A DNA stretch of 39,809 nt from Azoarcus sp. (GTDB lineage Bacteria; Pseudomonadota; Gammaproteobacteria; Burkholderiales; Rhodocyclaceae), in assembly GCA_031265765.1 (NCBI GenBank), contig JAISCE010000020.1, positions 1 to 39,809 on the forward strand. The letters run 5' to 3'. The position numbers and the translations under genes are program-made. The notes beneath the pieces were generated by a model. The model saw nothing but the letters and a program-made list of their open reading frames with translations. It ran no database searches and was not told the origin of the DNA. Positions 9,570 through 26,311 of the stretch are shown one piece after another (within the stretch, counting starts at the first letter, position 1; the number at the start of each line of letters is the position of its first letter).

Positions 9570-9584
9570 CGCGTCCTCGCCGCA

Positions 9585-10436: not shown

Positions 10437-10553
10437 GATCGACCCCGGCAACGGAACGAACGCCGATTATGCCCCACCCCGATGCACGGCATGGCATTGC
10501 CAGACGGCAACAATACCGTTTCCCCGACATGATTTTCCCGGCAAGCTTCCAAA

Positions 10554-11831: not shown

Positions 11832-11876
11832 GAGCCTGTAAGCATGATAAACAGGTGCAATCGCCCTGGGAAATGG

Positions 11877-11894
11877 GCGGGGTGATGACCCCGC
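11877..11894. terminator. Hairpin between convergent pldA and the antitoxin gene
   Basis: GCGGGGT and ACCCCGC form a perfect 7-bp stem with a GATG loop in the 88-nt gap between the two convergent stops. Neither strand has a good T-run after it, so it is at best a weak, possibly bidirectional, terminator. Confidence 0.35.
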
Positions 11895-11919
11895 GCGCCT
11901 TACGCCACTTGCCGGGCTG

Positions 11920-12210
11920 TTACACCGAATGCGCTTCCAGCCATTCGCGCATGGTGTCATTGACCCTTGTTTGCCACCCCCTACCTGTGGCTTTCAGCCG
12001 CGCCAGCACATCCGGATCGAAGCGAATGGCGGTTTGCACCTTGGGGGAAGCCTTGACGCTTCCAACGGGTCTGCCACGCCGTCTGGCAACGATGTCGGCA
12101 GGCGTGGAAACCCGGGCGTATTCGCCGCGCCGCGCTTCCTCTACTGAACGCAGTAGCGCCTGCTCGAAGGCGTCCATTTCCGGATCGGGATGGGGGGGAA
12201 GTTCAGACAT
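11920..12210 (-). CDS. BrnA-like antitoxin
   Basis: This is a 96-residue protein. Its C-terminal half carries the BrnA-type ribbon-helix-helix signature: TAIRFDPDVLARLKATGRGW, then QTRVNDTMREWLEAH. The GRPVGSVKASPK segment before it is common in antitoxins paired with RelE-superfamily toxins. The N-terminal half is acidic and probably wraps the toxin. It is encoded second, overlapping the toxin stop by 8 nt (12203-12210), so the two are translationally coupled. The toxin-first order is like higBA. The protein would neutralise the toxin and, through its RHH domain, repress the shared promoter. Confidence 0.85.
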   Translation of the reverse strand: MSELPPHPDPEMDAFEQALLRSVEEARRGEYARVSTPADIVARRRGRPVGSVKASPKVQTAIRFDPDVLARLKATGRGWQTRVNDTMREWLEAHSV

Positions 12211-12514
12211 CGTAACGCTCCTTCAAGTGCCGCAAGAACTCCGGGCGCAGATTGTCGAATTTGGCCTTGGCATACACTAGCAGCAAGACAACCAGCCCTT
12301 CCTTGTCGCGCAGGTAATAAATCACTCGCGCCCCGCCGCGCTTGCCCATGCCTTGCCGGGAAAAACGCACCTTGCGCAACCCGCCTGCATGCGCAATGAC
12401 ATCCCCGGCATCCGGGTGTTGGGAAATCCAGTCGACGAAGGCGTCACGCTCATCGTCCGACCAGACGTGCGGATACCAAGCGAGGAATTCAGGGGCTTCG
12501 ACAACAGTCAACAT
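12203..12514 (-). CDS. RelE/ParE-superfamily toxin, HigB2-like
   Basis: This 103-residue protein has the pattern GDVIAHAGGLRKVRFSRQGM followed by GKRGGARVIYYL, closely like HigB2-type mRNA interferases (GDVIxGTGGLRKIR, GKGKRGGxRIIYY). These cut ribosome-bound mRNA. The C-terminal part, VVLLLVYAKAKFDNL, forms the last strands of the RelE fold. It is the first gene of a two-gene module with the BrnA-like antitoxin. The assigned -10 box lies only 6 nt upstream of the ATG, so the transcript may be leaderless; no Shine-Dalgarno is visible. The module sits at the junction of GC-rich backbone and AT-rich polysaccharide island. Confidence 0.87.
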   Translation of the reverse strand: MLTVVEAPEFLAWYPHVWSDDERDAFVDWISQHPDAGDVIAHAGGLRKVRFSRQGMGKRGGARVIYYLRDKEGLVVLLLVYAKAKFDNLRPEFLRHLKERYDV

Positions 12515-12612: not shown

Positions 12613-13440
12613 TCAGGCTCGCCTGATAGTATTGACGTCAGGCGGTACAAGCAACGGCACTCTGTATTTGCGAGCGAAGGTAAAAAGACTTTTGAGATGT
12701 GTCCGTCCAGCCCAGCTAAAAGGGCCAGACGCGCTTGAACGTTGATGGTGATGGACAAGACGCGCGCCCGGCACACACACTACACGCGATCCTGAAGACC
12801 ATACGCGAGCACATAAATCTACGTCTTCCATATAAAGGAAATATGAATCATCCATCCCCCCTATACGCTGAAACAGATCGCGCCGAATAATGAATCCGGT
12901 ACCCATGACCCAATCGGCATCGAAAGGTTTACCATCTTCCCAAGACGAAATCATCATGTGCTTATCCAGCCTCCCTTTCATCGGCCAATAATGCCCAATC
13001 GGCGAGCGGCGGCAGATAATATCGAGGATGCTATAAAAACGTCGCGCGGAGAATTGACGGCGGCCATCCGGATATATCAGATCGAGGCCAATCAACCCGA
13101 CATCGGGTCTTTCGTCCAGCACCTGAAGGGCTAGCTTGATAGTGTCATCTATAAAGTAGGTATCGGGATTGAGTATTAATAAATACTGTTCTAGCGTCTC
13201 CTTTACTCCAATATTAACGCCATAAGAAGCGCCACCGTTACGTCCGGTATCCAGCACTTTTATTCCACATAACTCTGCACGTAATTGCGCAAACGAGCCG
13301 TCTGGAGAGGCGTTATCCACAACAATAATTTGATCGTCACCTGCGACCTGCCAATCACGCAGCGACTGAACGCACGTTTTGACCAACTCCGGCGTACAAT
13401 AGTTAACAATTACTACGCTTACTTTGTTTTGGATATCCAT
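12613..13440 (-). CDS. Family 2 glycosyltransferase (rhamnosyltransferase-like)
   Basis: This is a 275-residue inverting GT-A enzyme. It opens with VSVVIVNYCTPELVKTCVQS, and has DQIIVVDNASPDGS (nucleotide-sugar binding), NGGASYGVNIGV, a DxD-like LILNPDTYF, and the acceptor-side GTGFIIRRDLF and YMEDVDLCARV (catalytic Asp of the ED motif). The NPD and ED patterns resemble WbbL-type rhamnosyltransferases, but the sugar cannot be read from sequence. It is cytoplasmic and acts on a lipid-linked repeat unit. It is the last gene of the minus-strand polysaccharide cluster. Its N-terminus is strikingly like the remnant found on the upstream acyltransferase. The 120-nt spacer upstream holds a GGAGG 12 nt before the ATG and no further gene. 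Confidence 0.9.
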   Translation of the reverse strand: MDIQNKVSVVIVNYCTPELVKTCVQSLRDWQVAGDDQIIVVDNASPDGSFAQLRAELCGIKVLDTGRNGGASYGVNIGVKETLEQYLLILNPDTYFIDDTIKLALQVLDERPDVGLIGLDLIYPDGRRQFSARRFYSILDIICRRSPIGHYWPMKGRLDKHMMISSWEDGKPFDADWVMGTGFIIRRDLFQRIGGMDDSYFLYMEDVDLCARVWSSGSRVVCVPGARLVHHHQRSSASGPFSWAGRTHLKSLFTFARKYRVPLLVPPDVNTIRRA

Positions 13441-13560
13441 GTCAATGTACAGCCTCCAAAGAAATCGATCACTCGGCCCAGCCCCGACCGTTTCGTCGCT
13501 TCACAAAGGAGGAGACAGCCGCCGTTTCATTCTGAATGCTAAAACAACTTCAGCTTCCAT

Positions 13561-14643
13561 TCACTGCGAAGGTTTAGCCAAATAATGACTATTTTTAAAT
13601 AAAAATCGTTTTTCAACAAGATGCCACATCAAATACCCCCCGAAAATAACAAGGACTGTAGCCACCAACAAACCGCCCCATCCAGAATACCTAAACATAC
13701 CCAAGCTGATCAGTACTTGTAAGATAGGGAAATGTACAATATAAACCCCATAAGAAAGATCACCAATTTTACTCAGATTAATGGCAGGAAGACAGAAAGC
13801 GAAAAAGCAAAGCACCAAAGCCAAGGAAGCTGGATATAGCATGTCGCTTACTCCTGTATAATGTAATGAAAATCCTAAAGCCACGACTACCAAGCAAAGC
13901 CGACCGGAAGCTATAACTTTATCATAAAAGTAATAAATCGCCATTCCAGATGCAAAAAACTGCAACTGCCCCGGCAGTTGCTTCGCAAAGATTGCAGCAT
14001 GTGTCCAATTAAGGTTTTTCATCAAAACAGAGTATAAAAAACCAGTTATATATAAAAGCAAGAGGATGAGTGCAGGGCGACTTCTTTTACACAACCATGC
14101 AACAATAGGGACACATACATAGAACATAACTTCTATCTTAATAGTCCACATGGCACCATTGACTGCGGGGATAAGATTATTTTCAAAGACCCCGGGGATA
14201 GAAGGCGTGATAAAGTTTAAAAATACAGCATTGATGGCCAAATATTTTATATAGCCCAAAGAAGTGAAAACTCCATAGGAAGTGCACTCAATTATAGGAA
14301 GCAGAATTGCAAAAAATAAAAGGGATGCTATATAAGCAGGATATATTCTTCTAATCCTTTTTCGTGCATAACTCGACAAAGTCTTACTTCTCTCATAACT
14401 CATAATAATCAAGAAACCACTAATCACAAAAAATGATTCGACAGCAACTTTAGACGACAAGAAATACGTAAGCGACTCTAAATCATTTGAATGTGATAAA
14501 TCATACGAATGCACAAGAAATACTATAAATGCCAATATCAAACGAATAATATCAAAATTATTTTCCGATGACCGAACATATGTCTTGGTTAGATCAGGTG
14601 TATGATAATTGACAACAATGGCGCTTAACTTTTGCACGCTCAT
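13561..14643 (-). CDS. Membrane O-acyltransferase (acyltransferase 3 family) with a GT2-derived N-terminal leader
   Basis: From about residue 24 this is an AT3/OafA-type integral membrane acyltransferase: ENNFDIIRLILAFIVFLVHS, FFVISGFLIIMSYERS, RKRIRRIYPAYIASLLF and about ten hydrophobic segments, with the conserved His in FLVHS and the R/K-rich RKRIRRIYPAY loop. Such enzymes acetylate sugars of surface polysaccharides. The first 23 residues (MSVQKLSAIVVNYHTPDLTK, then TYVRS) are instead the N-terminus of a GT2 glycosyltransferase, joined in frame to the normal AT3 start. There is no Met at the natural AT3 start, so the leader supplies initiation. I chose the ATG at 14643: it has AGAGGA 9 nt upstream and overlaps the GT4 stop as ATGA. 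Confidence 0.9.
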   Translation of the reverse strand: MSVQKLSAIVVNYHTPDLTKTYVRSSENNFDIIRLILAFIVFLVHSYDLSHSNDLESLTYFLSSKVAVESFFVISGFLIIMSYERSKTLSSYARKRIRRIYPAYIASLLFFAILLPIIECTSYGVFTSLGYIKYLAINAVFLNFITPSIPGVFENNLIPAVNGAMWTIKIEVMFYVCVPIVAWLCKRSRPALILLLLYITGFLYSVLMKNLNWTHAAIFAKQLPGQLQFFASGMAIYYFYDKVIASGRLCLVVVALGFSLHYTGVSDMLYPASLALVLCFFAFCLPAINLSKIGDLSYGVYIVHFPILQVLISLGMFRYSGWGGLLVATVLVIFGGYLMWHLVEKRFLFKNSHYLAKPSQ

Positions 14644-15716
14644 AATCTGCATTCCTCTAAGCGCGGCTCAACGTTCAACAATGCACTCTCAAGCGCTTTA
14701 AGAGCGTTCTCCCAAGTAAATTTAGACAGCCGCATTTGACCCATTTCCATGCAATTGTTTACTTTCTCAGGCAAAGACAGCAATCGGAATGCTTCGGCCC
14801 AACTTTGTGGATCACCAAGCTTTACGAAAAATGCAGCATCACCCAACACCTCACGATGTGGCGGAATATCTGAAGCAATTACTGGCGTACCACACGACAG
14901 CGCTTCAAGCGGGGGGATACCAAACCCCTCCCAACACGAAGGGTATACTAATGCACTCGCACTTTGATAAAGATACAGCAATGCTTCACGTGATACGTAA
15001 TCCTTAAATTCAACCCTGTCATCAAGCCCAAGATGACGAACTTTCTGTGCGAGCGCTTTCCGGTACGGGCCATCGCAAGAAGTAATGATTAGTCTATAAT
15101 TCTCTTGCCAACATGGAGCCATATCCAACACTTCATGCACATTCTTATGTGGATATCGCGCTCCGACCATCAATAAGAAACGACTCCCTGAATGTGCACC
15201 AGAAGCAGGCGGAAAGGCGCTCTGATCAACTCCATTCGGCACAACAAAAATACTTTCCAAAGGGAAGGCATAAGTCTTGGCAATATCATGGCGTGTAGTT
15301 TCAGAGACCGTAAAAACCGCGCGGCACTTTTTTAATAGGTGTGGCAAGCCAAAACGAAAAAAAAGGTATTGCGAAAAATGCTGTGCAGGAAATCTCAAGC
15401 TGATAAGGTCATGCACGGTGATGATCTGCCCAACCTGATTAGGCAGTCCGTGATGGGTCGGCGAATACATAACTTGATCAGAATTAAATTGCACAGAACG
15501 TAGCCACCATTGCCGCCGCAGCGCAGCAAGTTTGCCACTACCAATAGCAACTGAATCAGGTGCCTTAACCACTACTTCGCCATCTGGAAGGTATCCATTT
15601 CCGGCAATCAATCCAAGGCGAAAGCGCTGTGCCAAACCTGAAACGCAGTGCTCGGCGTAAACACCCAAACCTGTGGGATGTCTACCAAGCATAGAAAGAT
15701 TACAAATCAGCTTCAT
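14640..15716 (-). CDS. Family 4 glycosyltransferase (mannosyltransferase-like)
   Basis: This is a 358-residue GT-B retaining enzyme. It starts MKLICNLSMLGRHPTGLGVY with the glycine-rich N-lobe loop, continues through ITVHDLISLRFP, AVFTVSETTRHDI and FVVPNGVD, and has a C-lobe beginning LLMVGARYPHKNVHEVLD. The donor-site motif is ALVYPSCWEGFGIPPLEALS then CGTPVIASDIPPHREVLGDA, the classical E(x7)E region. It resembles WbaZ/WbdB-type mannosyltransferases, but the sugar is an inference. An in-frame GTG at 15749 would overlap the upstream gene; the ATG at 15716 fits the family N-terminus. It overlaps the downstream acyltransferase by ATGA. Confidence 0.92.
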   Translation of the reverse strand: MKLICNLSMLGRHPTGLGVYAEHCVSGLAQRFRLGLIAGNGYLPDGEVVVKAPDSVAIGSGKLAALRRQWWLRSVQFNSDQVMYSPTHHGLPNQVGQIITVHDLISLRFPAQHFSQYLFFRFGLPHLLKKCRAVFTVSETTRHDIAKTYAFPLESIFVVPNGVDQSAFPPASGAHSGSRFLLMVGARYPHKNVHEVLDMAPCWQENYRLIITSCDGPYRKALAQKVRHLGLDDRVEFKDYVSREALLYLYQSASALVYPSCWEGFGIPPLEALSCGTPVIASDIPPHREVLGDAAFFVKLGDPQSWAEAFRLLSLPEKVNNCMEMGQMRLSKFTWENALKALESALLNVEPRLEECRL

Positions 15717-15735
15717 CACGTATGGCAAAGCTTGT

Positions 15736-18597
15736 CTACTTACCAGCACACGCGCTTATATAACAAGTTGAGGTTGAATGTGATGACCATTTTTTTTCAC
15801 CATTTTTTGCATATACAACAAGCTCACCATTATCTTCCAATGTGACTCTGTCGCCACTTGTACGTGGTATTGTATCCCATTTGAGCGCCCAAACAATCTG
15901 ACCACTACTGTCGTAGCAGCGTGCATTTCTATCCTGTCCCAACACTAACTTGAATCTACTATTTTCAGACACCAACTGCTGACCCGTTTTTACGGTATAA
16001 GGGAGAAAGTTCTCTCCAAAGTTTAGTGTCGAACCAGATTGTAGCCATTCGACAGTTTCAATTCGGAACCCCAACTTACCAGGGTGACCAGCATAAAAAG
16101 CACCTCCTATCAATATCCTGGTAACGTCTATTAAATCAAGCCTTTTATTTCCAACTCCACCTTCTAACTGATTTTTTACATCCCTGAAAAGGCCGATATA
16201 GCTACCATCTGCAGTTTTGCTAAGGTTCAATAGCCATTTCTCACCAGATGGCCATTTCTCCCAGAGTGTCACTTGCAGGGGAGCACGCAGCCCCCCCCAA
16301 CCAAGAATGTCATTAATCCTTACACGTATGCCACTTCGAGTGGAAAGCATAGTCTGCGGCGTTATCGCCAACCAGGGGAAAATCCAAATATTGCCTATTT
16401 CTTTGAACTCACTTTTCACTGTAACTGCGCATGTACCATTTTGTTGATAAATCTCTGTCAAAGCTTTACTAGAAGCCAACTTGCTCCATGTACCACAGAA
16501 AGATTTAGCAACCGGTGGATAAACCCGCAAGGCTACCCGTACTGTATCGGACTTATTGCCTGAATAAGCATTAATCGTAGCGTAGCTACCACCAGCAAGC
16601 GATGAGCCAACAGTAAAATGACAGGAATATTGATCATCTTGCCAACCTTCATAACTTACATCAAGACTGGGCCCCGGTACACATTGAAATTTGTAAGCTT
16701 TACTGTTGGTGGAATTACCATCATGAGCGCGCACGGCAAGCTCCATAACCTGTCCAGCTTCGACTATAACCTCGGAAAGCGATTGATGATTTCTAGAAAG
16801 AATTTCTCGGCCAGCGACTTTCACACGCGCCTCTAACCATAGAGGATTTTTTGGTAAAGAAATAGATTTAGGCAAAGTCACAGGCATAACCGCTGAAGGC
16901 AGCGCTCTAATATTTGAAACTAACAGCGGCATTTTTTCTGAATCTGTATTTGGCAATGTTACCTCACGGCCAAAAATATCGCGCACAGTAATGCTTGGCA
17001 GATTGAGCACATTGGAATTACCCCCCCAAGTAACAGCAACTATAGATGCATCTGCACGGCGAAAATAAACAGTGCGCCCCTGAGCGCCATGCTTTTCGAC
17101 ACCTACAATGGATGCACCGTTCAAATGTCTAGTTAGCAGAGCAAGGGCAAAATACGCCGGGCGAGGAGAAGCATCACAACGGGTTATACCCCATATTTGA
17201 TATTTCTTTTGCCCCTGTGCTTCTTGTTGTTCTATAGGGGGAATTCCGATACCGTTAATACATTTCCAATTAGTAAAATTCTGTTTCTTCCCTCCAATAT
17301 AATATGGCATTGCATTTTCAACAAGATACGGCCAAAAAAAGTAGAAAACACGTTCATATCCACTTGCGAATCCCGTGACATAAGTCCTAACAAGATATTG
17401 CGCCTGTAAAATCTCGAATTCTCTATTACCATCCTCACCAGTAAAGAATCTATAACCAGTTTCAGTAAGCCAACCTGGACGGTCATTTATCATATATTGA
17501 CGTTCAATTTCCGCAAAATTCCTGCTGTAAAAGGTATCGAAAAGCGTCAACTCGAGCTTTTTTCCATACGCTTCTTTTCTATCACGGTAGTAATGAGCAT
17601 TACGCAGGTCAAAAAAATTTGCGACATTATTAGCAAAAGTTTCTTCTTGAAATAGCAAAGATTGATGATCATCAACACCAAGAAAAGGGTCACCAGCAGC
17701 GAGTGAACCAAGAAGGATTTTTATTTTTGGATCAACAGATTTAACACCGGCGCTAAATGCTTTGAGACCACTTGCATATTGAAAAGGATAACCGTCAAAA
17801 TACGTATGAAGGTTTTGCTCGTTCCAATATTCGACACTACGGGCCTTTCTACCTAAACCAAGTGCATACTGACGACCGAATTCAAATACTTTAGCATAAT
17901 CCAATGGTGGAGCCGCTTTGTGGTCCATTTTCAATTCTGGATATATCCAAAAAGGTGCTGCATCAACTATTTGTACAAGATCAAGACCTTTTGCTAAAGC
18001 TTTATCTGCCATACTGCTAAATATCCCCCAATTGATAGGAGTGTTTTCATTTTTTTGCAGTTTCCACCATCCCATGCGGTCGCGCACGCTCCGGATCCCG
18101 GCAAGTTTCATCATATCAAATGATCGATCAGCAAGGATAGATGGATCCTGGCTGTACTCGCCACCGAATTTCCAGCTAACCCCAGCGTCCATTCCAAAGC
18201 GTTCTTCCTGCGGAGGATCACCGTCTGGTAAAACGACCAAAGAACTTTTCCACAAGAACTGCGTTTCAGAATAAAGCTCTAGATCATAATAACCGACAGA
18301 CAATCCATTTGCAGTGATAATTAACGATGAGTCAGTATCGTCAAGCTGCGAAATTTTTTTCACTATCTCCCCTTTCAGGTTGCGAAAAACAAAATTATAT
18401 ATGCTTTTTTTGCCGTCTGAGTTGATCTTGAAATGCCAAGTGGCACTTTCAACACAGGTAATTACTTTAGTGTTGCGCTCAATTGTATTAATAAGTATAA
18501 CTTCGTCGGCAAGTGCCATTTGTTGAATACATAACATATACAAGGCAAGCGCAAGCACAACGATTCTATGTAAATCATATCTAACGCATGGATTCAT
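15736..18597 (-). CDS. Secreted clan-A-like glycoside hydrolase with C-terminal bulb-type (B-lectin) domain
   Basis: This is a 953-residue protein. A signal peptide (HRIVVLALALYMLCIQQMAL, cleaved near ADEV) directs export. A beta-rich N-terminal domain of about 130 residues precedes a TIM-barrel region similar to GH39/GH5-like enzymes. The expected acid/base is Glu260 in YWNEQNLH and the nucleophile is Glu379 in WLTETGYR, both at strand ends as in clan GH-A. After ~residue 560 come beta-sandwich segments. The last ~90 residues (QLVSENSRFKLVLGQDRNAR, DSSGQIVWALKWD, LEDNGELVVYAKNGEKKW) match the mannose-binding bulb lectin fold, though the QxDxNxVxY sites are degenerate. No PEP-CTERM or membrane anchor is present. 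A role in trimming or releasing the locus polysaccharide is inferred from context. The ATG at 18597 has GGGGGG 8 nt upstream. Confidence 0.8.
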   Translation of the reverse strand: MNPCVRYDLHRIVVLALALYMLCIQQMALADEVILINTIERNTKVITCVESATWHFKINSDGKKSIYNFVFRNLKGEIVKKISQLDDTDSSLIITANGLSVGYYDLELYSETQFLWKSSLVVLPDGDPPQEERFGMDAGVSWKFGGEYSQDPSILADRSFDMMKLAGIRSVRDRMGWWKLQKNENTPINWGIFSSMADKALAKGLDLVQIVDAAPFWIYPELKMDHKAAPPLDYAKVFEFGRQYALGLGRKARSVEYWNEQNLHTYFDGYPFQYASGLKAFSAGVKSVDPKIKILLGSLAAGDPFLGVDDHQSLLFQEETFANNVANFFDLRNAHYYRDRKEAYGKKLELTLFDTFYSRNFAEIERQYMINDRPGWLTETGYRFFTGEDGNREFEILQAQYLVRTYVTGFASGYERVFYFFWPYLVENAMPYYIGGKKQNFTNWKCINGIGIPPIEQQEAQGQKKYQIWGITRCDASPRPAYFALALLTRHLNGASIVGVEKHGAQGRTVYFRRADASIVAVTWGGNSNVLNLPSITVRDIFGREVTLPNTDSEKMPLLVSNIRALPSAVMPVTLPKSISLPKNPLWLEARVKVAGREILSRNHQSLSEVIVEAGQVMELAVRAHDGNSTNSKAYKFQCVPGPSLDVSYEGWQDDQYSCHFTVGSSLAGGSYATINAYSGNKSDTVRVALRVYPPVAKSFCGTWSKLASSKALTEIYQQNGTCAVTVKSEFKEIGNIWIFPWLAITPQTMLSTRSGIRVRINDILGWGGLRAPLQVTLWEKWPSGEKWLLNLSKTADGSYIGLFRDVKNQLEGGVGNKRLDLIDVTRILIGGAFYAGHPGKLGFRIETVEWLQSGSTLNFGENFLPYTVKTGQQLVSENSRFKLVLGQDRNARCYDSSGQIVWALKWDTIPRTSGDRVTLEDNGELVVYAKNGEKKWSSHSTSTCYISACAGK

Positions 18598-18632
18598 ATC
18601 ATTCACCCCCCAATAGGTAAAGTAAAGGTCTG

Positions 18633-18645
18633 TGACCTGCCCCCA
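18633..18645 (+). repeat. Solitary IS-type terminus (TGACCTGCCCCCA)
   Basis: These 13 bases are identical to the terminus of the IS3-family element at 39214-39226 and start with the TG expected of IS3 inverted repeats. The following ~65 bases up to the wzy stop at 18712 (AAATGGAGTAGCAGATG onward) are non-coding and could be left-end IS sequence. No transposase frame remains. It lies between the polymerase and hydrolase genes, inside the island. Confidence 0.5.
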
Positions 18646-18711
18646 AATGGAGTAGCAGATGATAGTAGAGTCTGCTCATGCCTGACACTCCAGATTTTCC
18701 GGAAAAACACC

Positions 18712-19968
18712 TCATCTCTTGCTTTGCATTGATCTCATGCAAACATAACCAAGCAATATTCCTAGAAAAAATGATGACCCAGGCAACTCAAAACCAGTTT
18801 CCATTGAGCCATAAATCGCTATAAATACAGATAAAGTTGGTATCAAATAGCTTTCTGTACATTTAACCCTTGCGGCTTGTACAAGTACAACGGAAAATAA
18901 TATGATAGGAATTACACCTCCTATCAGGAAAGCGTATACAGCCCAATTATCACAAAACCCGCCACCTAAATGACTCCATGGGTCAAACATAATTTGCGAA
19001 CCACCAACTGCCCCCAATCCCCCGCCCAACAAATATGACTTATTGCTCGCAAAGGCATGCGGCCAAGTATCCATTATTCTAATCGCGAAAGAAGCAAAGG
19101 GAGAATTTAAAAGATTTTTTATATAGCCCGAGTATGACACTGAACCAAAAGAAAGAATAAATGGCAACCCCACTCCAAGGGCAACAAATATAGTTGTTGC
19201 ACAAACAATAATTTTTTCCCATACATACGGCAAAAACCTAAATATATCACACAAAGAAATTATTATTAAAGCCAGCAAAATGCTTCTTATACCAGTCAAC
19301 CAAATCGCTATAAATGTCATTATTAGCAGCAGTAATTTTGCAAAAGACCACTTCGCATAAGAACATGAATATAATAAATAAAATATAATAGAATACGATG
19401 CTGCCGGATTAGGAGCCAAACTAAACCCATGATGACGCATACGTTCCCCCAAGACTTGCGCCGTCTTTCCAATTGCTTTTTCGTGTCCCCCAACATTGAT
19501 TACCATATTCCTCCAAGGAAAACCCAAAGTGCTATCGACGACTAACCCAACAAAAATCAAGAAAGATACAATATAAAATACCCTCCTCCAATGAATCGCG
19601 CATTCGGTAAAATCTCTCGAATACGCAACACCCAATATAAAGAGAAGAAGTATTTTTACTGCAAAAAGAACCTGAATAATACTCTCAGTAAACACTGAAT
19701 AGAAGAATAAAAATCCAAAATAAATCCACAACAATATACCGTTCGCATTAACTTTACAGCCTGTCAGAAACCTTAAAACAGGTCTCATAATCATTATTAT
19801 AACAAGCGGGTCTCTGATATAAATCAAAAAACCCATACCGATAAGCGAGAGCAGCCAGCGTAGCAGCCCCTCAAAAACATAACTACACGCACATACTAAT
19901 AACGCTATTCTTATCCACAGTGGGAAAGGGTCTTTGAAATATTTATTCTTATAATCAAATATATACAT
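18712..19968 (-). CDS. wzy: O-antigen/exopolysaccharide polymerase (Wzy/WaaL-like)
   Basis: This 418-residue protein is almost entirely hydrophobic, with roughly ten to eleven membrane segments and one larger periplasmic loop (about residues 150-195: MVINVGGHEKAIGKTAQVLG then ERMRHHGFSLAPNPAA). It ends in short charged residues. This layout, together with a cytoplasmic-side SKLLLLIMTF-like block and WLTGIRSILLALI, is that of the Wzy_C/O-antigen ligase superfamily, which polymerises undecaprenyl-linked repeat units at the periplasmic face. Polymerase rather than ligase is chosen because a flippase and several GTs lie in the same cluster. Sequence conservation in this family is low, so the assignment rests on topology and context. 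No Shine-Dalgarno is seen before ATG 19968. The 260-nt AT-rich gap upstream holds no recognisable gene. Confidence 0.82.
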   Translation of the reverse strand: MYIFDYKNKYFKDPFPLWIRIALLVCACSYVFEGLLRWLLSLIGMGFLIYIRDPLVIIMIMRPVLRFLTGCKVNANGILLWIYFGFLFFYSVFTESIIQVLFAVKILLLFILGVAYSRDFTECAIHWRRVFYIVSFLIFVGLVVDSTLGFPWRNMVINVGGHEKAIGKTAQVLGERMRHHGFSLAPNPAASYSIIFYLLYSCSYAKWSFAKLLLLIMTFIAIWLTGIRSILLALIIISLCDIFRFLPYVWEKIIVCATTIFVALGVGLPFILSFGSVSYSGYIKNLLNSPFASFAIRIMDTWPHAFASNKSYLLGGGLGAVGGSQIMFDPWSHLGGGFCDNWAVYAFLIGGVIPIILFSVVLVQAARVKCTESYLIPTLSVFIAIYGSMETGFELPGSSFFLGILLGYVCMRSMQSKR

Positions 19969-20228
19969 ATTATTTATAGTAGGGCAGCTTCAACGTCAAA
20001 GCGCAACACGTTGATGCCGACTATCCTATTAACCTGGCAATATAATATCGAACATGATGAGTTTACAAAACACTGTTATTTATTAACCCGGCAATCAACT
20101 ACAATATAAAGAGGCGTATTGAACATTGGCATGTTTGAAATAGGAGATGACCACTCCGCCTGGCTCTCAAAAAGTAGTTACACAGTTTAATTTACAGACT
20201 CAGTTTGATCCGCCCAGCCTAAAATTCA

Positions 20229-21104
20229 TCAACGGAAAACGGCATAATAGTGTCCTTTTCTGAACGTCCACCCCAACATCCCCTCTAATCTCCCCACAAA
20301 TCCCCATCCTCCATCTAAGATTTCATACTCTGGATGACGAATACCTTTAGTAGCGCCACCAATCAATGTTTTTAATTTCCACCAAAATGGATAATTATGC
20401 TGGCGCGCCACCCAACCTAGACCACGACTATAAGCAAGAAGTTTTTGCCGCCTTTCAGCTTTATTTAGGCCATATGTTTCAGTAACACCACCCAAAGCAA
20501 TCGAATTTGGCAACCACAGGAATTCATGCGCAAGTGATGGACTCTCGGCAAGAGCGCGCAGAAGCAAATCGGCAGCCTCACCGGATTGCCAAGGCGTACT
20601 AGCTCCTGTACCAATACTTGGATCGAAACCACCAAGTCGTGCAAAATCACTGCGGCAGACCAGCAACCCCATTTCTATAACTTTCCATACAGTGAATTTG
20701 TTCAGCAAAGAACTAGGTGGAGGAATGACGAATTTTGAACCTTCTTCATCAATTACCGTCATCCCTCCGAAGCGAAATTTTATGGGCGCAACCGCCGAAC
20801 GCATATGCGAGACAACTCCATCAGGAAACCAAGTTGTGTCGTTAGGAAATTGCAAAACAAAATCACCTTCCGGCAATGTTTGAACACCGACATTCCGCCC
20901 AAGCGCTGCGCCTCTATCAGATGTAGTAACAGTTATAGGCAACAAATTAAAGCTACCCACTAGATCTTGAACTTGGTCAACATTTCTTTGCGTAACAATA
21001 ACAATCTGATCGCCAAGAATAAGCTGACCTATCAAAGAAGTCAGTAATTTATTAAGTGCTTGGACTCTACCCAAGGTGGTAACAACAAAGCCAATATTGC
21101 GCAT
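20229..21104 (-). CDS. Family 2 glycosyltransferase
   Basis: This 291-residue GT-A enzyme begins MRNIGFVVTTLGRVQALNKL, followed by DQIVIVTQRNVDQVQ, RGAALGRNVGV and FVLQFPNDTTWFP (a ND in place of the usual DxD-type metal site). Later motifs are LLVCRSDFARLGGFDPSIGT and GEAADLLLRAL at the acceptor side. The donor and acceptor sugars are unknown. The start at 21104 is favoured because TGAGG, which includes the LicD stop codon, lies 5 nt upstream; an in-frame start at 21140 would overlap licD. It is the last gene of a tightly packed run from the exosortase gene; a 260-nt gap separates it from wzy. Confidence 0.85.
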   Translation of the reverse strand: MRNIGFVVTTLGRVQALNKLLTSLIGQLILGDQIVIVTQRNVDQVQDLVGSFNLLPITVTTSDRGAALGRNVGVQTLPEGDFVLQFPNDTTWFPDGVVSHMRSAVAPIKFRFGGMTVIDEEGSKFVIPPPSSLLNKFTVWKVIEMGLLVCRSDFARLGGFDPSIGTGASTPWQSGEAADLLLRALAESPSLAHEFLWLPNSIALGGVTETYGLNKAERRQKLLAYSRGLGWVARQHNYPFWWKLKTLIGGATKGIRHPEYEILDGGWGFVGRLEGMLGWTFRKGHYYAVFR

Positions 21105-21111
21105 TTTAACC

Positions 21112-21957
21112 TCATTTATGGATATAAGGAGAGAGATCAATACGCAATATCGCGTGGTGAGAGTAACGTTTATCAGGCGGCGGAGGTATCATATAATCAC
21201 CATAGATTCCTTTAAGATACTCATCATATCTCGCCGGAGCATTAACTTCAAATGTTTCAAACTTAAGTTTTATTGACTCATCAAACAGATGTTTTCTGCA
21301 AATTTCTTTATATCCCCATGCACCAACAAAATTACCTATGTAACTTGCATTACCAAATTTTTTAATCTTAAGAATCATCGTAATCAAAAAATTAAGCATA
21401 GCTGAAGAAATTGGAATAAACTTATGAATTAGCCACTTAAATTTTCGTTTAATCAAATTTTTAGGTATTGGGAATCCTCCTGATTTGATAGCACATAAAA
21501 TAATTAGTCTTCTTATTATGTTGAAATGTATTTTCCGCAAAAATGGAGTGGTAAAGGTTGCATCTAATGGGAAAATATCAACCCAGAGCCCGCGTGTAAA
21601 TTCATTTATAAAATTTTCTGTCACCGTAGTTTGCGTATCATAAGATTTTGCGAACTGATAAAAATAACCTTCATCATTACCGGTATGGCAAATTTTATAG
21701 CGCCCATTAGTTTTATCGCAGAACTTATCGGCAAGTTCAAGTAACCGATCATAGTCTGGGCGTGGTATCCCAATATCAATATCGTCGTCCCAAGGAATGA
21801 AACCTTCATGCCTGACAGCGCCAATGAGTGTACCGCCTATAATGTAGTATCTTATATTATTGTATTCACAAAACTGATGCAAAGCATAAAAATTTTGTAA
21901 AATATTTTGCTGAATCTCTATTAGAGACGGTGAAGAATTTGATATGTTTGTTGGCAT
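21112..21957 (-). CDS. licD: LicD-family phosphotransferase
   Basis: This 281-residue protein has the LicD nucleotidyltransferase-fold signature GGTLIGAVRHEGFIPWDDDI then DIGIPRPDYDRLL at about residues 41-70. LicD enzymes move a phospho-alcohol (phosphocholine in Haemophilus and pneumococcus; phosphoribitol or phosphoglycerol in fukutin-like relatives) from a CDP-activated donor onto a sugar. The next gene upstream encodes a cytidylyltransferase/dehydrogenase fusion that could make the donor. The ATG at 21957 has AAGGGA 9 nt upstream and is preferred to the in-frame TTG at 21993. Strong AT bias and many Ile/Lys/Asn codons set it apart from backbone genes. No membrane segment is obvious, so it probably acts in the cytoplasm on lipid-linked sugars. 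Confidence 0.92.
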   Translation of the reverse strand: MPTNISNSSPSLIEIQQNILQNFYALHQFCEYNNIRYYIIGGTLIGAVRHEGFIPWDDDIDIGIPRPDYDRLLELADKFCDKTNGRYKICHTGNDEGYFYQFAKSYDTQTTVTENFINEFTRGLWVDIFPLDATFTTPFLRKIHFNIIRRLIILCAIKSGGFPIPKNLIKRKFKWLIHKFIPISSAMLNFLITMILKIKKFGNASYIGNFVGAWGYKEICRKHLFDESIKLKFETFEVNAPARYDEYLKGIYGDYMIPPPPDKRYSHHAILRIDLSPYIHK

Positions 21958-22014
21958 GCTTTTATTCCCTTCAGGCTGCAATAGCATTTTCAAAAATACT
22001 CAATAAAAATAAAG

Positions 22015-23352
22015 TTAACCAAAATACTCCGAGTTAGCACGTGCTGTTTCAATGATACCGGCTATGGCTATAGATTCTTCGGGACGGAGCTTGAAAGATT
22101 CCAGAACTCCATTACGAATCATCCACACGAATTCGGCTAATTCATAGCGCAGGCCGTCACCATCGAATTTGTAGTAATAACGCTTGTTCTGCCGGCTGTC
22201 TTCAAAGCGTGTTTCAAAATATTCTGTCAACCACCAAGGAGCAGGGACATAAACATAACCTTTTTCACCTGCAACGATCAGTTCCCCCTCGGCTTTTACC
22301 CCGATGCCAGTGCGCGCAGAGGCAACACTGTGTAGGTAGCTAAGGTCGATGCGAGAGAAAATCTCAACCTCATCCCCTTCGCGTTTGAGTGAGTGAGTGC
22401 AGATACGCGAATAATCGGTGCCAACCAATTTCACTGCGGCAAGCAATGGGTAAGTAGCCAACTCCGAAATGCTGCCACCATCCAGACCTTCGAGTTCTCG
22501 ACCAACGTTCACCAGCTTGGTAAAGGTAGCATCCACCGAACGGATACGACCGATAAAACCCATGCGAGCCACAGCTACCATGCGCTGAAAACCAGGAGAA
22601 AAGGCTGTTTTTACCGCTTCGAGTAAAACTACTCCGCGCGCTTTAGCCAAACTGAAAAGTTCCTCCGTCTCAGCCTTGGTGAGCGTCATCGGTTTTTCGC
22701 ACAAAACATGAACCCCTGCTTCAATAGCTCGCTTAGCGTAATCAAAGTGAGTAGTATGTGGGGAGGCAATGTAAATCGCCTGGACATTCGAGAGCAACTC
22801 TTCGTAAGTCGTCACGGCAGTCTCCAACTCCAAGCGCTGGACAAATGCTTGGGTCGACTCAAACCGCCTAGAGTAAACGGCTTCGATGGAAACTCCGGAA
22901 ACAAAACGCGCTTCGGCAACAAAACGGGCTGCGATGCGCCCAGAGCCAACGACACCGAGTTTGATTACTCCGCTTTCATTGCGTAGTTGGGTAGACGAGA
23001 CCCCCTTGGTACGCTCCAAATAAACCACTTTACAATAGTCGTTTAGATAGTCGAATTTGCTTACCCAGTCAGAGCCAATAGCAAAAATGTCTACACGGTA
23101 TTTTTGAATGTCGTTAACTTTCTGCCCTTCATACTCTTCGATGATAACTTCGTCCGCCAAGCCGGAACTTCGCACGTTCTGGATGCGCTCCATCAACGGC
23201 TGCATCACATTGAGCTTACCCCTGGCATCATCGAAATTTTCAGTGGTGACTGCAACGATCAAGCGATCACCAAGTGCTTTGGCTCGCTCCAGCAGGCGGC
23301 GATGCCCTTCATGGAATAAATCAAATGTGCCGTAGGTAATAACAGTCGTCAT
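22015..23352 (-). CDS. Cytidylyltransferase (TagD-like)/Gfo-Idh-MocA oxidoreductase fusion
   Basis: This is a two-domain protein of 445 residues. Residues 1-127 are a TagD/GCT-type nucleotidyltransferase with GTFDLFHEGH (residues 8-17, the HxGH motif) and RTKGVSSTQLR (114-124, equivalent to RTxGISTT). Residues 130-445 are a Gfo/Idh/MocA dehydrogenase with NAD(P)-binding GVVGSGRIA (133-141) and the catalytic-Lys motif CEKPM (218-222). The first domain would form a CDP-alditol from an alditol phosphate. The second would oxidise or reduce a sugar or polyol. A plausible reading is that the two steps make and activate the group that LicD, 57 nt downstream, transfers. The starting compound (glycerol, ribitol or another polyol phosphate) cannot be read from sequence. 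It sits 6 nt after the flippase gene. Confidence 0.9.
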   Translation of the reverse strand: MTTVITYGTFDLFHEGHRRLLERAKALGDRLIVAVTTENFDDARGKLNVMQPLMERIQNVRSSGLADEVIIEEYEGQKVNDIQKYRVDIFAIGSDWVSKFDYLNDYCKVVYLERTKGVSSTQLRNESGVIKLGVVGSGRIAARFVAEARFVSGVSIEAVYSRRFESTQAFVQRLELETAVTTYEELLSNVQAIYIASPHTTHFDYAKRAIEAGVHVLCEKPMTLTKAETEELFSLAKARGVVLLEAVKTAFSPGFQRMVAVARMGFIGRIRSVDATFTKLVNVGRELEGLDGGSISELATYPLLAAVKLVGTDYSRICTHSLKREGDEVEIFSRIDLSYLHSVASARTGIGVKAEGELIVAGEKGYVYVPAPWWLTEYFETRFEDSRQNKRYYYKFDGDGLRYELAEFVWMIRNGVLESFKLRPEESIAIAGIIETARANSEYFG

Positions 23353-23358
23353 GATTCG

Positions 23359-24651
23359 TTACTTGCCGCCAGTCTGGATTAGAGTCGTCTGACTTGGCAC
23401 AGACTTAAATGGTGCCGAAACCAGCTTTTTAAAATACGGAATCGCATATTTAATACGATATAAAAATACGCAGATTTCGGCTATAAGGACTGTCGACACA
23501 ACAGCGACCGCCGAAAACAGGCCCATAGAATACAAAACGATCATGGCAATGATTTGTATACCTCCGGCGAGAAGAACGCTACGATTAGCCGCTGTCGCAT
23601 TACCCATGGCACCCAAGAATGGATAACCCAAAAGAATTGAAGGAATGGCTACCGCAAGCGCAAGCATAAAAAACAAAAATACGCTCACACTGTCTGTATA
23701 CGCTTTTCCGAAAATCAGTTCGATCAACCAGCTGCCGGAAAGCAGGCCTATCACGATTCCAGTAAATGCCACTAATAGTGCAACCTTAAAGATTTTTTTG
23801 AAAAAGAACACATCCCTGTACCTTGCCATATGGGGGTACAGTACCGCAGTCAAAGGGGCATACACCGCGAGCGCAGCACGATAAAACTGTTCTGCAACAG
23901 AATATGTGGCAACTTGGGCAGGGGTCGAGAATGTGCCAAGAAAAAACACAGCGCCGGCTCCATAGGCAGCGGCAGCTATTCGTGACCAAAAATATTCGGT
24001 GGAGGATTTAAACACATCGCGGGCATAGCGGATGCTTGACCATTTTGGCCATACCCCGACTTTGTGAACGAAATGAAGCCCTAACCCCGCAGCCAGTAGA
24101 TGCGTTATTCCATTGAAGAAAGCAGCGTATTCCAGATCATCCTGGTTTTTTACAAAGATCAGCGTTAGGAAAACATATGATAACCGGGATGCAACAATGC
24201 AGACGGTTATTTTCCACATTCGTTCCAGCCCCTGGAACAGCCAAATCGGTTGCAATGTCATTCCAATGACTGAAAGCGACAATATCCAGAAATAAACTTT
24301 ATTATCTGCATAATCCTGATTCAGAGATGGATATAGAAAAAGAAATAATACAGCAAAAATGCAAATTAGTATTTTACAGATATATACTGCTCCAACAATT
24401 TTCCGAATTTCCAACATATCCCCATCAGCGCGAGCTATTTTATAAACAGCGGAAAGGCTAAAGCCATAATCGGTAAGAATGGCGGCAATCTGGATAAATG
24501 AAAGGCCAAAAGCATACAGCCCGTAATTTTCCATACCCAATGTGCGCGCAAGATAAGGGGTGAGCAACAATGGCATTAACGCCAGTGCAAGCTGACTTAC
24601 CAACATTGCACCGGCATTGCCGGAAATTTTCTTCAGAGCCGTATCTTTCAT
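23359..24651 (-). CDS. wzx: Wzx-type polysaccharide flippase
   Basis: This 430-residue integral membrane protein of the MATE/PST superfamily has about twelve predicted membrane segments. The N-terminus ISGNAGAMLVSQLALALMPL then LLTPYLARTLGMENYGLYAF is the typical Polysacc_synt pattern. It continues with a basic cytoplasmic loop and FFLGTFSTPAQVATYSVAEQ in the middle, another frequent Wzx motif. It would move undecaprenyl-PP-linked repeat units across the inner membrane to the Wzy polymerase encoded at 18712-19968. It starts 20 nt downstream of epsI and ends 6 nt before the fusion gene, so all three are probably on one transcript. Confidence 0.93.
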   Translation of the reverse strand: MKDTALKKISGNAGAMLVSQLALALMPLLLTPYLARTLGMENYGLYAFGLSFIQIAAILTDYGFSLSAVYKIARADGDMLEIRKIVGAVYICKILICIFAVLFLFLYPSLNQDYADNKVYFWILSLSVIGMTLQPIWLFQGLERMWKITVCIVASRLSYVFLTLIFVKNQDDLEYAAFFNGITHLLAAGLGLHFVHKVGVWPKWSSIRYARDVFKSSTEYFWSRIAAAAYGAGAVFFLGTFSTPAQVATYSVAEQFYRAALAVYAPLTAVLYPHMARYRDVFFFKKIFKVALLVAFTGIVIGLLSGSWLIELIFGKAYTDSVSVFLFFMLALAVAIPSILLGYPFLGAMGNATAANRSVLLAGGIQIIAMIVLYSMGLFSAVAVVSTVLIAEICVFLYRIKYAIPYFKKLVSAPFKSVPSQTTLIQTGGK

Positions 24652-24671
24652 ATAAAACTATTATAAACAGA

Positions 24672-25400
24672 TTAACTTTTTGTGGACGGACTATAAGATA
24701 AGGAACCAATCAAGGCTTTCCTTGTTTCCAAAGGAATATGATTTAATAAATCAATTATAAATTCGTCTTGCAAAGTAAAAGATTGCTGTGTGTCTGCGTT
24801 GACTTCAGACACACGAACCAGAACCCCATCCGGAATAATGCCTTGCAGGCCGTAACGAATGCGTGCAAGTGATTGTTCAATGGAACCCCTTATCATCGTG
24901 TCTCCAAACCGTATCCAATAGGTAAGAGGCTCGTTACGATTGCCTGCTTTAGCAACAAGCCGCATGACTGGCATATCCATGCCTCCCTTATTGATTACGT
25001 CTTTTCTTTGGCTAGTCAGCGAAAAACCTTGGGCGGGATAACATACCTCCGGCCTGTGGATGCGATTTTCATTGGACTGATCTGCTCCATAGGCAATGGA
25101 CAACATGATGCGCCGCCCTTCACGATTGATATAAGTACGTGACAAAGTTTGTGAGTATATACGCACCAAAGTTTCTTGCAATCGTGGATTAATTATCTCA
25201 AGAACAGTACGTTCATCCATATACCATTCGCCGAATTGGCGTGGTATAAGGTCTTCGAGATCAATAGAACCCGCCTGTGTCGAATCCATCCTTGTTGTGA
25301 TTTTGGGCGTTAACAAGTATGCCAGAATGGCAGCAGTAAACATCAAAACCGTCATAAGGGAAGCACGACGAAGCAGAACAGGAAAAGTGCATGCGCTCAT
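24672..25400 (-). CDS. epsI: Exosortase-associated protein EpsI
   Basis: This 242-residue protein has one N-terminal membrane helix (ASLMTVLMFTAAILAYLLTP) and a periplasmic EpsI domain. Diagnostic blocks are DLEDLIPRQFGEWYMDE near the start, YSQTLSRTYINREGRRIMLS, IAYGADQSNENRIHRPEVCY then PAQGF with the conserved HRPExCYxxxG, and TYWIRFGDTMIRGS. EpsI proteins occur only with exosortases, either as a separate gene or fused to the exosortase C-terminus. Their molecular role is not settled; the family is linked to exopolysaccharide production. The start overlaps the exosortase stop as ATGA (25397-25400). Confidence 0.94.
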   Translation of the reverse strand: MSACTFPVLLRRASLMTVLMFTAAILAYLLTPKITTRMDSTQAGSIDLEDLIPRQFGEWYMDERTVLEIINPRLQETLVRIYSQTLSRTYINREGRRIMLSIAYGADQSNENRIHRPEVCYPAQGFSLTSQRKDVINKGGMDMPVMRLVAKAGNRNEPLTYWIRFGDTMIRGSIEQSLARIRYGLQGIIPDGVLVRVSEVNADTQQSFTLQDEFIIDLLNHIPLETRKALIGSLSYSPSTKS

Positions 25401-26311
25401 GCTGTTACCCTGATCTCTTTGCGTATAAACATCGTCCTGGTAAGCGAATCAAATCCGATGATCAATATCAGCGCGCTCAAGAAAAGCACCATGCCGGCAA
25501 AGCCATGTAAAAAACCTTGTCCGACCTCGTCACCCCAATAGTACGTAATCAGGACAAGCAGCATCACACGGATAACATTGGCAGTATAGGAAATCGGCAC
25601 AATGAGAATTGCCAGAATTGTATTGCGCATTATCGATTCATGCCGTACAAGATTGAGGTATAAAAGTCCCAATGATTCAAGCGTAAAAAGAGTCTGCAAT
25701 CCAGCACAGGCATCCGCTACAAGCAGCTGATATTGGCCAATTTGCAAAATGACGCCAGAACGAGCTATCGGGTAACCCGCACTATATAGCAAATGTTCGA
25801 CAGCCCAAGAAACCGCTATCTTCATCGGCATGGTAATGCTATCCACAATCACAGCGGGGATTGGAACCATGAACAGCATGAAGAAGAGCGGAAACCAGAC
25901 AAGCTTGATGGCTTTCTTGCCTAAAAGACCCAAACCCAGCGATACCAGAATCAGGATGACGGATACTACTTCAAACGGAACGACTGACTGCGAACGCCCC
26001 ACAATGTAAAATAGCAACCCTATTGGCAGAATTACCCACCCCATGACAGTGCGCGGAGCTTCTTCACGAGCAGCCATGACTTCCGGCCATTTGCGGTAGA
26101 GAAGCCAAAGCGCAACAAACAGCACTATCGGGCCATGTTCTTCACCAGAACTCCACGATCCATGGAACAAGCTCCAAAGAGTAGGGACGTACATGACGCA
26201 CAGCCCCGCCAACACGATGATCCATGGCGCCCATTTTCCGATTTTGCCCGGAACCGGGTTACCGCTGCCAGCCGGGCACGAAGCGACAGCCGTCGCGTTA
26301 TCTTCGGTCAT
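25397..26311 (-). CDS. xrtB: Exosortase B (EpsH-type membrane transpeptidase)
   Basis: This 304-residue protein has about eight membrane segments. The three exosortase active-site residues are present in order: Cys202 in VADACAGLQTLFTLE, Arg248 in SYTANVIRVMLLVL and His269 in GFLHGFAGMVLF. Exosortases cleave C-terminal PEP-CTERM signals on the periplasmic side. The gene context with epsI and polysaccharide genes, and the ~300-residue length without fused EpsI, match the B subtype found in betaproteobacterial EPS clusters (Methylobacillus EpsH). It is the first gene of the island operon. A possible promoter lies 160 nt upstream. No PEP-CTERM protein is encoded in the window. Confidence 0.93.
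   Translation of the reverse strand: MTEDNATAVASCPAGSGNPVPGKIGKWAPWIIVLAGLCVMYVPTLWSLFHGSWSSGEEHGPIVLFVALWLLYRKWPEVMAAREEAPRTVMGWVILPIGLLFYIVGRSQSVVPFEVVSVILILVSLGLGLLGKKAIKLVWFPLFFMLFMVPIPAVIVDSITMPMKIAVSWAVEHLLYSAGYPIARSGVILQIGQYQLLVADACAGLQTLFTLESLGLLYLNLVRHESIMRNTILAILIVPISYTANVIRVMLLVLITYYWGDEVGQGFLHGFAGMVLFLSALILIIGFDSLTRTMFIRKEIRVTA

Follow-up and report, generated by a model that had tools for sequence, protein, structure and literature searches.

Two elements of the pathway considered here have published precedents, namely LicD in a Gram-negative teichoic-acid-like capsule, and pairs of a reductase and a cytidylyltransferase that produce alditols linked to cytidine diphosphate (CDP). 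We describe a locus in which such functions appear to be joined differently. The window, a stretch of 39,809 nucleotides from Azoarcus sp. (contig JAISCE010000020.1), encodes a fusion of a TagD-type cytidylyltransferase with a Gfo/Idh/MocA reductase and, directly after it, a LicD-family phosphotransferase. On balance, we think it probable from the sequences that the fusion is a bifunctional enzyme making a CDP-alditol, and that LicD then transfers the alditol phosphate to the repeat unit of an exopolysaccharide (EPS).

Bacillus subtilis TagD and Staphylococcus aureus TarD (PDB: 1coz, 2b7l) resemble the first domain of the fusion in motifs and sequence. They are stand-alone chains, whereas the fusion carries an RGKxN motif with one extra residue and falls under the TIGR01518 cut-off. 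Work on a pneumococcal CDP-2-glycerol pathway (gtp1-3) has reportedly been carried out. In Streptococcus pneumoniae 23F, gtp1-gtp2-gtp3 with wchX constitute a glycerol-2-phosphate system, in which, as far as the accessible part of the paper goes, a dehydrogenase gene lies next to genes for a nucleotidyltransferase and a putative glycerol phosphotransferase (PMC3493582). In contrast to the window, these are separate genes with a third phosphotransferase, and the likeness is drawn from gene names.

The type 3 and 7 capsules of Actinobacillus pleuropneumoniae involve GCT, the LicD-family protein CpsC and the PF04464 protein CpsA, and share with the window the combination of a glycerol-3-phosphate cytidylyltransferase and a LicD-family transferase, there in a Gram-negative teichoic-acid-like capsule (PMC11666461, available portion). 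That portion mentions no fused reductase, and the window differs further in being an exosortase/Wzx locus in which none of the 11 scanned genes (12613-26311) encodes a PF04464 polymerase/primase of the TagF type. The sequence-only reading had pointed out a resemblance to teichoic-acid-like chemistry in a Gram-negative exosortase locus; such chemistry is already known, and a LicD-family enzyme beside a glycerol-3-phosphate cytidylyltransferase is described in the same portion of PMC11666461. For CDP-6-D-glucitol and CDP-mannitol, the described pairs are HS5.18 with HS5.17 in Campylobacter jejuni and Mnp1 with Mnp2 in S. pneumoniae, each combining a cytidylyltransferase and an NAD(P)H-dependent reductase to provide a CDP-alditol for a surface polysaccharide (PMC10918830, excerpts). 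These are two proteins, of the PF01128 and short-chain dehydrogenase/reductase (SDR) types, and concern a hexitol, whereas the window joins PF01467 and Gfo/Idh/MocA in one chain; the fusion did not show the PF01128 plus SDR (PF01370) combination, but PF01467 and PF01408 instead. A limited search of open-licence papers returned no publication on a TagD-Gfo fusion or on the exchange of reductase and pyridoxal phosphate (PLP) enzyme described below.

A conserved fusion of cytidylyltransferase and reductase

Cytidylyltransferase and dehydrogenase are indeed encoded as one polypeptide with LicD next to it, as the sequence-only reading had stated. The frame runs uninterrupted over 445 amino acids, and both domains score above their cut-offs, PF01467 at residues 5-124 with 75.1 bits (cut-off 21) and PF01408 at residues 130-244 with 91 bits (gathering cut-off 24). 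HxGH and RTxGxSST are nucleotidyltransferase motifs, and the first half carries them as HEGH (14-17) and RTKGVSST (114-121), together with GSDW. In Gfo/Idh/MocA oxidoreductases, GxGxxA is the NAD-binding and EKP the catalytic motif; both are intact in the second half, as GSGRIA and CEKP. The nearest PDB sequences are, for the first half, the glycerol-3-phosphate cytidylyltransferases 1coz and 2b7l and, for the second, the Gfo/Idh/MocA proteins 3e9m and 3evn. Against TIGR01518, the equivalog model for glycerol-3-phosphate cytidylyltransferase (TagD/TarD), the fusion reaches 108.3 bits, below the cut-off of 165.4, and we therefore call the first domain TagD-type rather than TagD. Like 3e9m, the Rossmann part has SRR at the end of strand β2, which suggests NADPH as cofactor and hence reduction.

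Searching genome contigs with the window protein yielded 16 homologues covering both domains at 47-55% identity, ten of them named Lachnospiraceae, with more found in other genomes. Because two-domain homologues recur in many genomes, the fusion is neither a matter of chance nor an assembly fault. The closest relative by identity (54%) is L001, a Clostridium sp. whose family we read as Lachnospiraceae; 24 of 250 genomes of this family match the fusion profile, 21 of them from profile position 1 or 2 and three over the second domain only. Closer to home, the fusion is rare. Among 40 genomes of the window's relatives it occurs only in the window's own, which is included in the count, and among 398 sampled genomes of its phylum in two, its own and G148, whose family (genomes of about 2 Mb) has it in 4 of 140, G148 included. 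In Bacilli, 3 of 398 genomes contain the full fusion, all with CEKP; these were found after the counts given below and stand outside the 42 fusions compared there. In one Bacilli genome, the gene directly upstream of a live fusion (L166:719-1504) encodes another protein resembling cytidylyltransferases, with a different, seemingly nucleotide-binding C-terminal part. A further copy resides on plasmid pRUMAL01 of Ruminococcus albus 7, annotated only as "adenylyltransferase/cytidyltransferase family protein" and flanked by genes for a class-V aminotransferase and LicD, one to each side. Given this patchy distribution, horizontal acquisition of the window's gene is most likely.

The sequence-only reading had called a dehydrogenase an unusual partner for TagD. 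Unusual it is, but within this cytidylyltransferase subtype the partner is conserved. In the 250 genomes of the L001 family, a first-domain profile gave 23 hits of at least 219 bits, all 23 in fused-length frames of at least 409 amino acids. The second domain was confirmed for 21 of the 23 genomes; G623 and G796 fall under the fusion-profile limit, so that frame length is the sole basis for assigning them a second domain. The remaining first-domain hits reach at most 153 bits and lie in frames of 132-181 amino acids, except for two (492 and 493). RGKxN is invariant in the aligned rows of the subtype, and none of the 250 genomes showed it in a short stand-alone frame. By eye, no split pairs of separate, adjoining TagD and Gfo genes were noticed among the matches listed for the 398 Bacilli, so this side adds no independent support for a coupling of the two functions.

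Live and dead reductase halves

We aligned 42 fusions, namely that of the window, the 16 first found, the R. albus copy, and four and 20 from the families of G148 and L001, respectively, the genome of L001 itself entering only once. Two of them, L118 and L119, are almost copies of each other, and L138, L143 and L144 were excluded since no open frame with both domains turned up in them. A reductase half is termed live when its GxGxxA and EKP-lysine motifs are intact, and dead when both are lost or altered while the cytidylyltransferase is kept. By this definition 26 fusions, including that of the window, are live and 16 are dead, in a sample biased by the 16 first-found fusions, for which the window protein served as query and which are live without exception. 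The dead fusions have S, A, F, N or T in place of the EKP lysine, along with a changed glycine motif. Mean pairwise identity is 0.71 among live and 0.73 among dead fusions in the cytidylyltransferase half, compared to 0.54 and 0.39 in the Rossmann part; the former half is as well conserved in dead fusions as in live ones, and the latter part has loosened.

The tree requires at least two live/dead changes, one in L121 and one in a clade of 15 dead rows. L121 is placed as sister to the live L120 on a long branch, a position flagged as unsure. The number of changes on a tree cannot by itself separate loss from gain, and we speak of loss because intact motifs are the usual state in the family. Resolution is poor in a tree built from the first domain only, where 6 of 38 inner branches are starred.

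Live and dead fusions differ in their neighbours. We scored these with hidden Markov models (HMMs), those for PLP enzymes built from the neighbours of dead fusions and that for glycerophosphodiesterase (GDPD) from the neighbours of live ones, all then run on every locus. By Fisher tests, which ignore the relatedness of the fusions, a class-V aminotransferase is found in 7/16 dead versus 0/26 live loci (p = 4e-4), a PLP enzyme (class-V aminotransferase or HisC/CobD-like) directly adjoins 10/16 dead versus 1/26 live fusions (p = 5e-5), the single live case being L129, and a GDPD gene is present in 14/26 live loci, the window not among the 14, versus 0/16 dead ones (p = 2e-4). LicD shows no difference (15/26 live, 9/16 dead). 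The dead L133 has its PLP enzyme three genes away and the dead L132 an iron alcohol dehydrogenase directly downstream, while in L130, L135, L140 and L141, all dead, the scanned stretch contains neither of the two. When pairs are taken from the tree, the PLP enzyme differs in the expected direction in 1.6 of 2 on average and never in the opposite one, and GDPD mostly shows no difference.

A model for the dead branch is offered by the PLP enzymes Cj1437 and Cj1436 of C. jejuni, which, in the available parts of the reports, produce serinol phosphate from dihydroxyacetone phosphate and ethanolamine phosphate from serine phosphate for the capsule (PMC12409886, PMC12096443). There, the products are used in glucuronic acid amidation, and we liken these enzymes to the PLP neighbours by enzyme type, orthology aside.

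These contrasts bear on whether the two halves work together. It is unlikely, in our view, that they are unlinked, with the first using ordinary glycerol-3-phosphate to make CDP-glycerol, and the second, Gfo half oxidising or reducing a sugar or a nucleotide sugar that goes into the same polysaccharide. The PLP enzyme gene beside 10 of the 16 dead fusions resembles the replacement of one step in one pathway, and the fused-length frames of all 23 subtype hits likewise argue for a link. Pointing the other way, many Gfo/Idh/MocA enzymes act on sugars, the PDB matches of the Gfo half include a sugar 3-ketoreductase, and the dead clade keeps the cytidylyltransferase without the dehydrogenase motifs.

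The aminotransferases beside dead fusions are PhnW-like, and L132 combines a thiamine pyrophosphate (TPP) enzyme with the iron alcohol dehydrogenase, features that would suit a phosphonate pathway in which the pair activates a phosphonate instead of a phosphate. We rejected this reading as very improbable. Phosphoenolpyruvate (PEP) mutase (TIGR02320) was not found in the window's genome or, leaving aside the unsearched R. albus, in that of any dead fusion (15 of 16 covered). None of 21 genomes of the window's genus, its own included, has a match, and of 28 genomes searched only two do, both with live fusions. Moreover, with 139 and 147.8 bits the aminotransferases stay below the PhnW-AepZ cut-off of 360.8, and the TPP enzyme of L132 fits acetolactate synthase best.

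Several loci contain further genes of related types. In L132, the stretch 7208-12379 next to the dead fusion encodes three enzymes, namely the iron alcohol dehydrogenase, the TPP enzyme resembling acetolactate synthase and one similar to 4-hydroxy-2-oxovalerate aldolase, which together may form a route to an unusual diol. A second Gfo/Idh/MocA domain, joined to GDPD, occurs in the same loci as the fusion at L010:11344-13152 and L016:15303-17162, and separate second Gfo genes with intact EKP are seen in further fusion loci, e.g. L011, L013, L015 and L127. A second TagD-like gene in L015, L122, L124 and L125 was considered as a true TagD, which would have indicated a different product for the fusion, and rejected, as all four fit the heptose adenylyltransferase domain best, below both cut-offs.

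Transferases and gene order

Our survey of LicD-fusion neighbourhoods shows that LicD is enriched near fusions relative to the remaining genes of their loci. It lies within one gene of 14/42 fusions (random same-locus genes: mean 3.7, maximum 11 in 5000 draws) and within two genes of 21/42 (mean 7.1, maximum 15 in 5000 draws); with the window left out, the former count is 13/41, at a random mean of 3.6. When PF04464 and PF04464-like genes are added to LicD, the counts rise to 24/42 within one gene (random mean 6.4, maximum 15) and 30/42 within two (mean 12.3, maximum 22), in a control that is not blind, these families having been chosen since they were seen as neighbours. The LicD-only control is the fairer one, with a LicD HMM that still includes the window's LicD and neighbours. 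The live L120 has three PF04464 genes, and no LicD was found in its locus.

A protein of about 850 amino acids adjoins seven live fusions (L004 at 7424-9964, L005, L006, L008, L125, L126 and L128). It has no convincing Pfam match; its residues 247-426 align with PF04464 proteins (hhalign probability 91.8, E 7.5e-7), and we regard it as perhaps a member of an undescribed phosphotransferase family. The C-terminal part is possibly propeller-like, with weak PQQ/Kelch hits in single members.

The window's LicD scores 148.2 bits against PF04991 (gathering cut-off 22.6), carries the DDDxD motif (PWDDDID; GGTLIGAVRHEGFIPWDDDID), and matches fukutin-related protein in the PDB (6kaj, E 7.9e-7). The ATG at 21957, preceded by GAAGGGA, is more likely its true start. 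On the minus strand, the transcription order is XrtB, EpsI, Wzx, fusion, LicD and a probable glycosyltransferase, followed by more genes down to 12613, several of them polysaccharide-related (Table 1). As called, the probable glycosyltransferase gene shares 29 bases with the 3' end of LicD, and a Pfam scan of its product gave no match. G+C content is 34-49% in the 11 locus genes, XrtB included, with LicD the lowest at 34.2%, and 58-65% in the four flanking genes measured; such an A+T-rich locus fits the expectation for an exchanged polysaccharide cluster.

Table 1 Coordinates of the fusion, its domains and neighbouring genes in the window.
Feature	Position	Strand	Evidence
Exosortase B (XrtB)	25397..26311	-	TIGR03113 383.3 bits, cut-off 275
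EpsI, B type	24672..25400	-	NF045609 271.4 bits, cut-off 220
Wzx-type flippase, directly upstream of fusion gene	23359..24651	-	PF01943
TagD-type cytidylyltransferase - Gfo/Idh/MocA reductase fusion, 445 amino acids, ATG start	22015..23352	-	PF01467 + PF01408
Cytidylyltransferase domain, residues 1-128, RGKxN subtype	22969..23352	-	alignments
Gfo/Idh/MocA reductase domain, residue 130 onward, Lys220 in CEKP	22015..22965	-	PF01408, motifs
LicD-family phosphotransferase, 293 amino acids from TTG	21112..21993	-	PF04991
Probable glycosyltransferase, TTG start as called	20229..21140	-	weak EPS_EpsD match, 22.4 bits

The locus also encodes a protein of 956 amino acids without a Pfam match (15736-18606, minus strand). 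Its residues ~870-949 show weak similarity to B-lectins (pyocin L1, putidacin, plant lectins), an odd C-terminal part for an EPS locus. In another genome of the window's genus (L158, genome G005), orthologues of XrtB, EpsI and Wzx (71-79% identity) are present with no fusion after them. About 370 bases further, at L158:4151-4348, a different TagD-superfamily gene begins and is interrupted by the contig end. This fragment matched five plasmid records, the best by E-value annotated as aepX (PEP mutase, 39.7%) and two as tagD; PEP mutase was not found in the G005 genome, which is 72% complete. It may be that cassettes for CTP activation are exchanged at the position following Wzx.

Proposed pathway and its implications

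The domains, their intact motifs, the gene order, the conservation of the fusion and its clustering with transferases of types that use CDP donors are the observed basis of our reading. From these we infer the direction of the reaction, its substrate, the order of steps, the acceptor and the presence of the unit in the EPS. The Gfo/Idh/MocA half would reduce a small carbonyl phosphate with NAD(P)H, or its CDP-linked form, the most likely substrate being a triose such as dihydroxyacetone phosphate. The TagD-type half would join the reduced product to CTP to give a CDP-alditol, most likely CDP-glycerol or an isomer, and LicD would attach the alditol phosphate through a phosphodiester to the lipid-linked EPS repeat unit before flipping by Wzx. 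The earlier proposal, in which a reduced polyol phosphate is coupled to CTP and handed on by a CDP-dependent transferase, thus stands as the best reading, given the intact reductase motifs and the LicD clustering; the novel donor that it suggested is a possibility.

As donor moiety we tentatively favour a C3, glycerol-like unit. TagD-type enzymes are known for small alcohol phosphates, and the GDPD and PF04464 neighbours of the relatives point to glycerol phosphate. In addition, the replacement of the reductase by a PLP enzyme matches the C. jejuni routes to serinol and ethanolamine phosphate, and glucitol and mannitol donors come from other folds, according to the excerpts of PMC10918830.

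A fixed order within this pathway, in which the cytidylyltransferase half makes a CDP-ketose and the reductase half then reduces the CDP-linked carbonyl, seems somewhat doubtful to us. The fusion would favour hand-over between the two sites, yet TagD-type enzymes of known substrate act on alcohol phosphates. In the published CDP-alditol pairs cytidylylation does precede reduction, but the enzymes concerned belong to PF01128 and SDR (PF01370) and not to TagD or Gfo (PMC10918830, excerpts).

Several points weigh against the CDP-alditol reading. No member of the fusion family with known activity was found. A GpsA-type supply would make a dedicated glycerol-3-phosphate reductase redundant. Within the 11 scanned locus genes of the window neither GDPD nor PF04464 was found, and the live window protein groups with the clade of 15 dead rows (95/81), apart from the 24 other live rows of the main group, so that the GDPD argument may not extend to it. 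The contrast between reductase and PLP enzyme amounts to only two independent losses, one of them on the unsure L121 branch, and a tree-based sign test cannot reach 0.05. Finally, the top NCBIfam match of LicD is diacylglycerol cholinephosphotransferase, at 75.8 bits far under the cut-off of 225. This match would agree with an acceptor outside the EPS, for instance a lipid, glycolipid or exported protein. We consider such an acceptor quite unlikely, as LicD lies between the Wzx and fusion genes and the glycosyltransferase genes, and the LicD and fusion of R. albus are likewise placed amid polysaccharide genes.

Extending the CDP-alditol reading to the whole family, we tentatively put forward a further and rather doubtful possibility, that the fusions form a modular platform for CDP-activated C2-C4 decorations. 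A live reductase would lead to an alditol donor. A decayed one would serve as a scaffold, with an adjacent PLP enzyme, or in one case an iron alcohol dehydrogenase, supplying the substrate for CDP-amino-alcohols such as CDP-serinol. For the window, the platform would imply an undescribed CDP-alditol, e.g. of the sn-glycerol-1-phosphate or glycerol-2-phosphate isomer produced within one chain, and an exosortase-associated EPS bearing alditol phosphodiesters. The fusion offers a candidate enzyme for CDP-alditol synthesis with both steps in one chain, of which we found no description. If the exchange of reductase and PLP enzyme holds true, one residue and one neighbouring gene would predict in which bacteria the surface polymers bear alditol phosphates and in which amino-alcohol phosphates.

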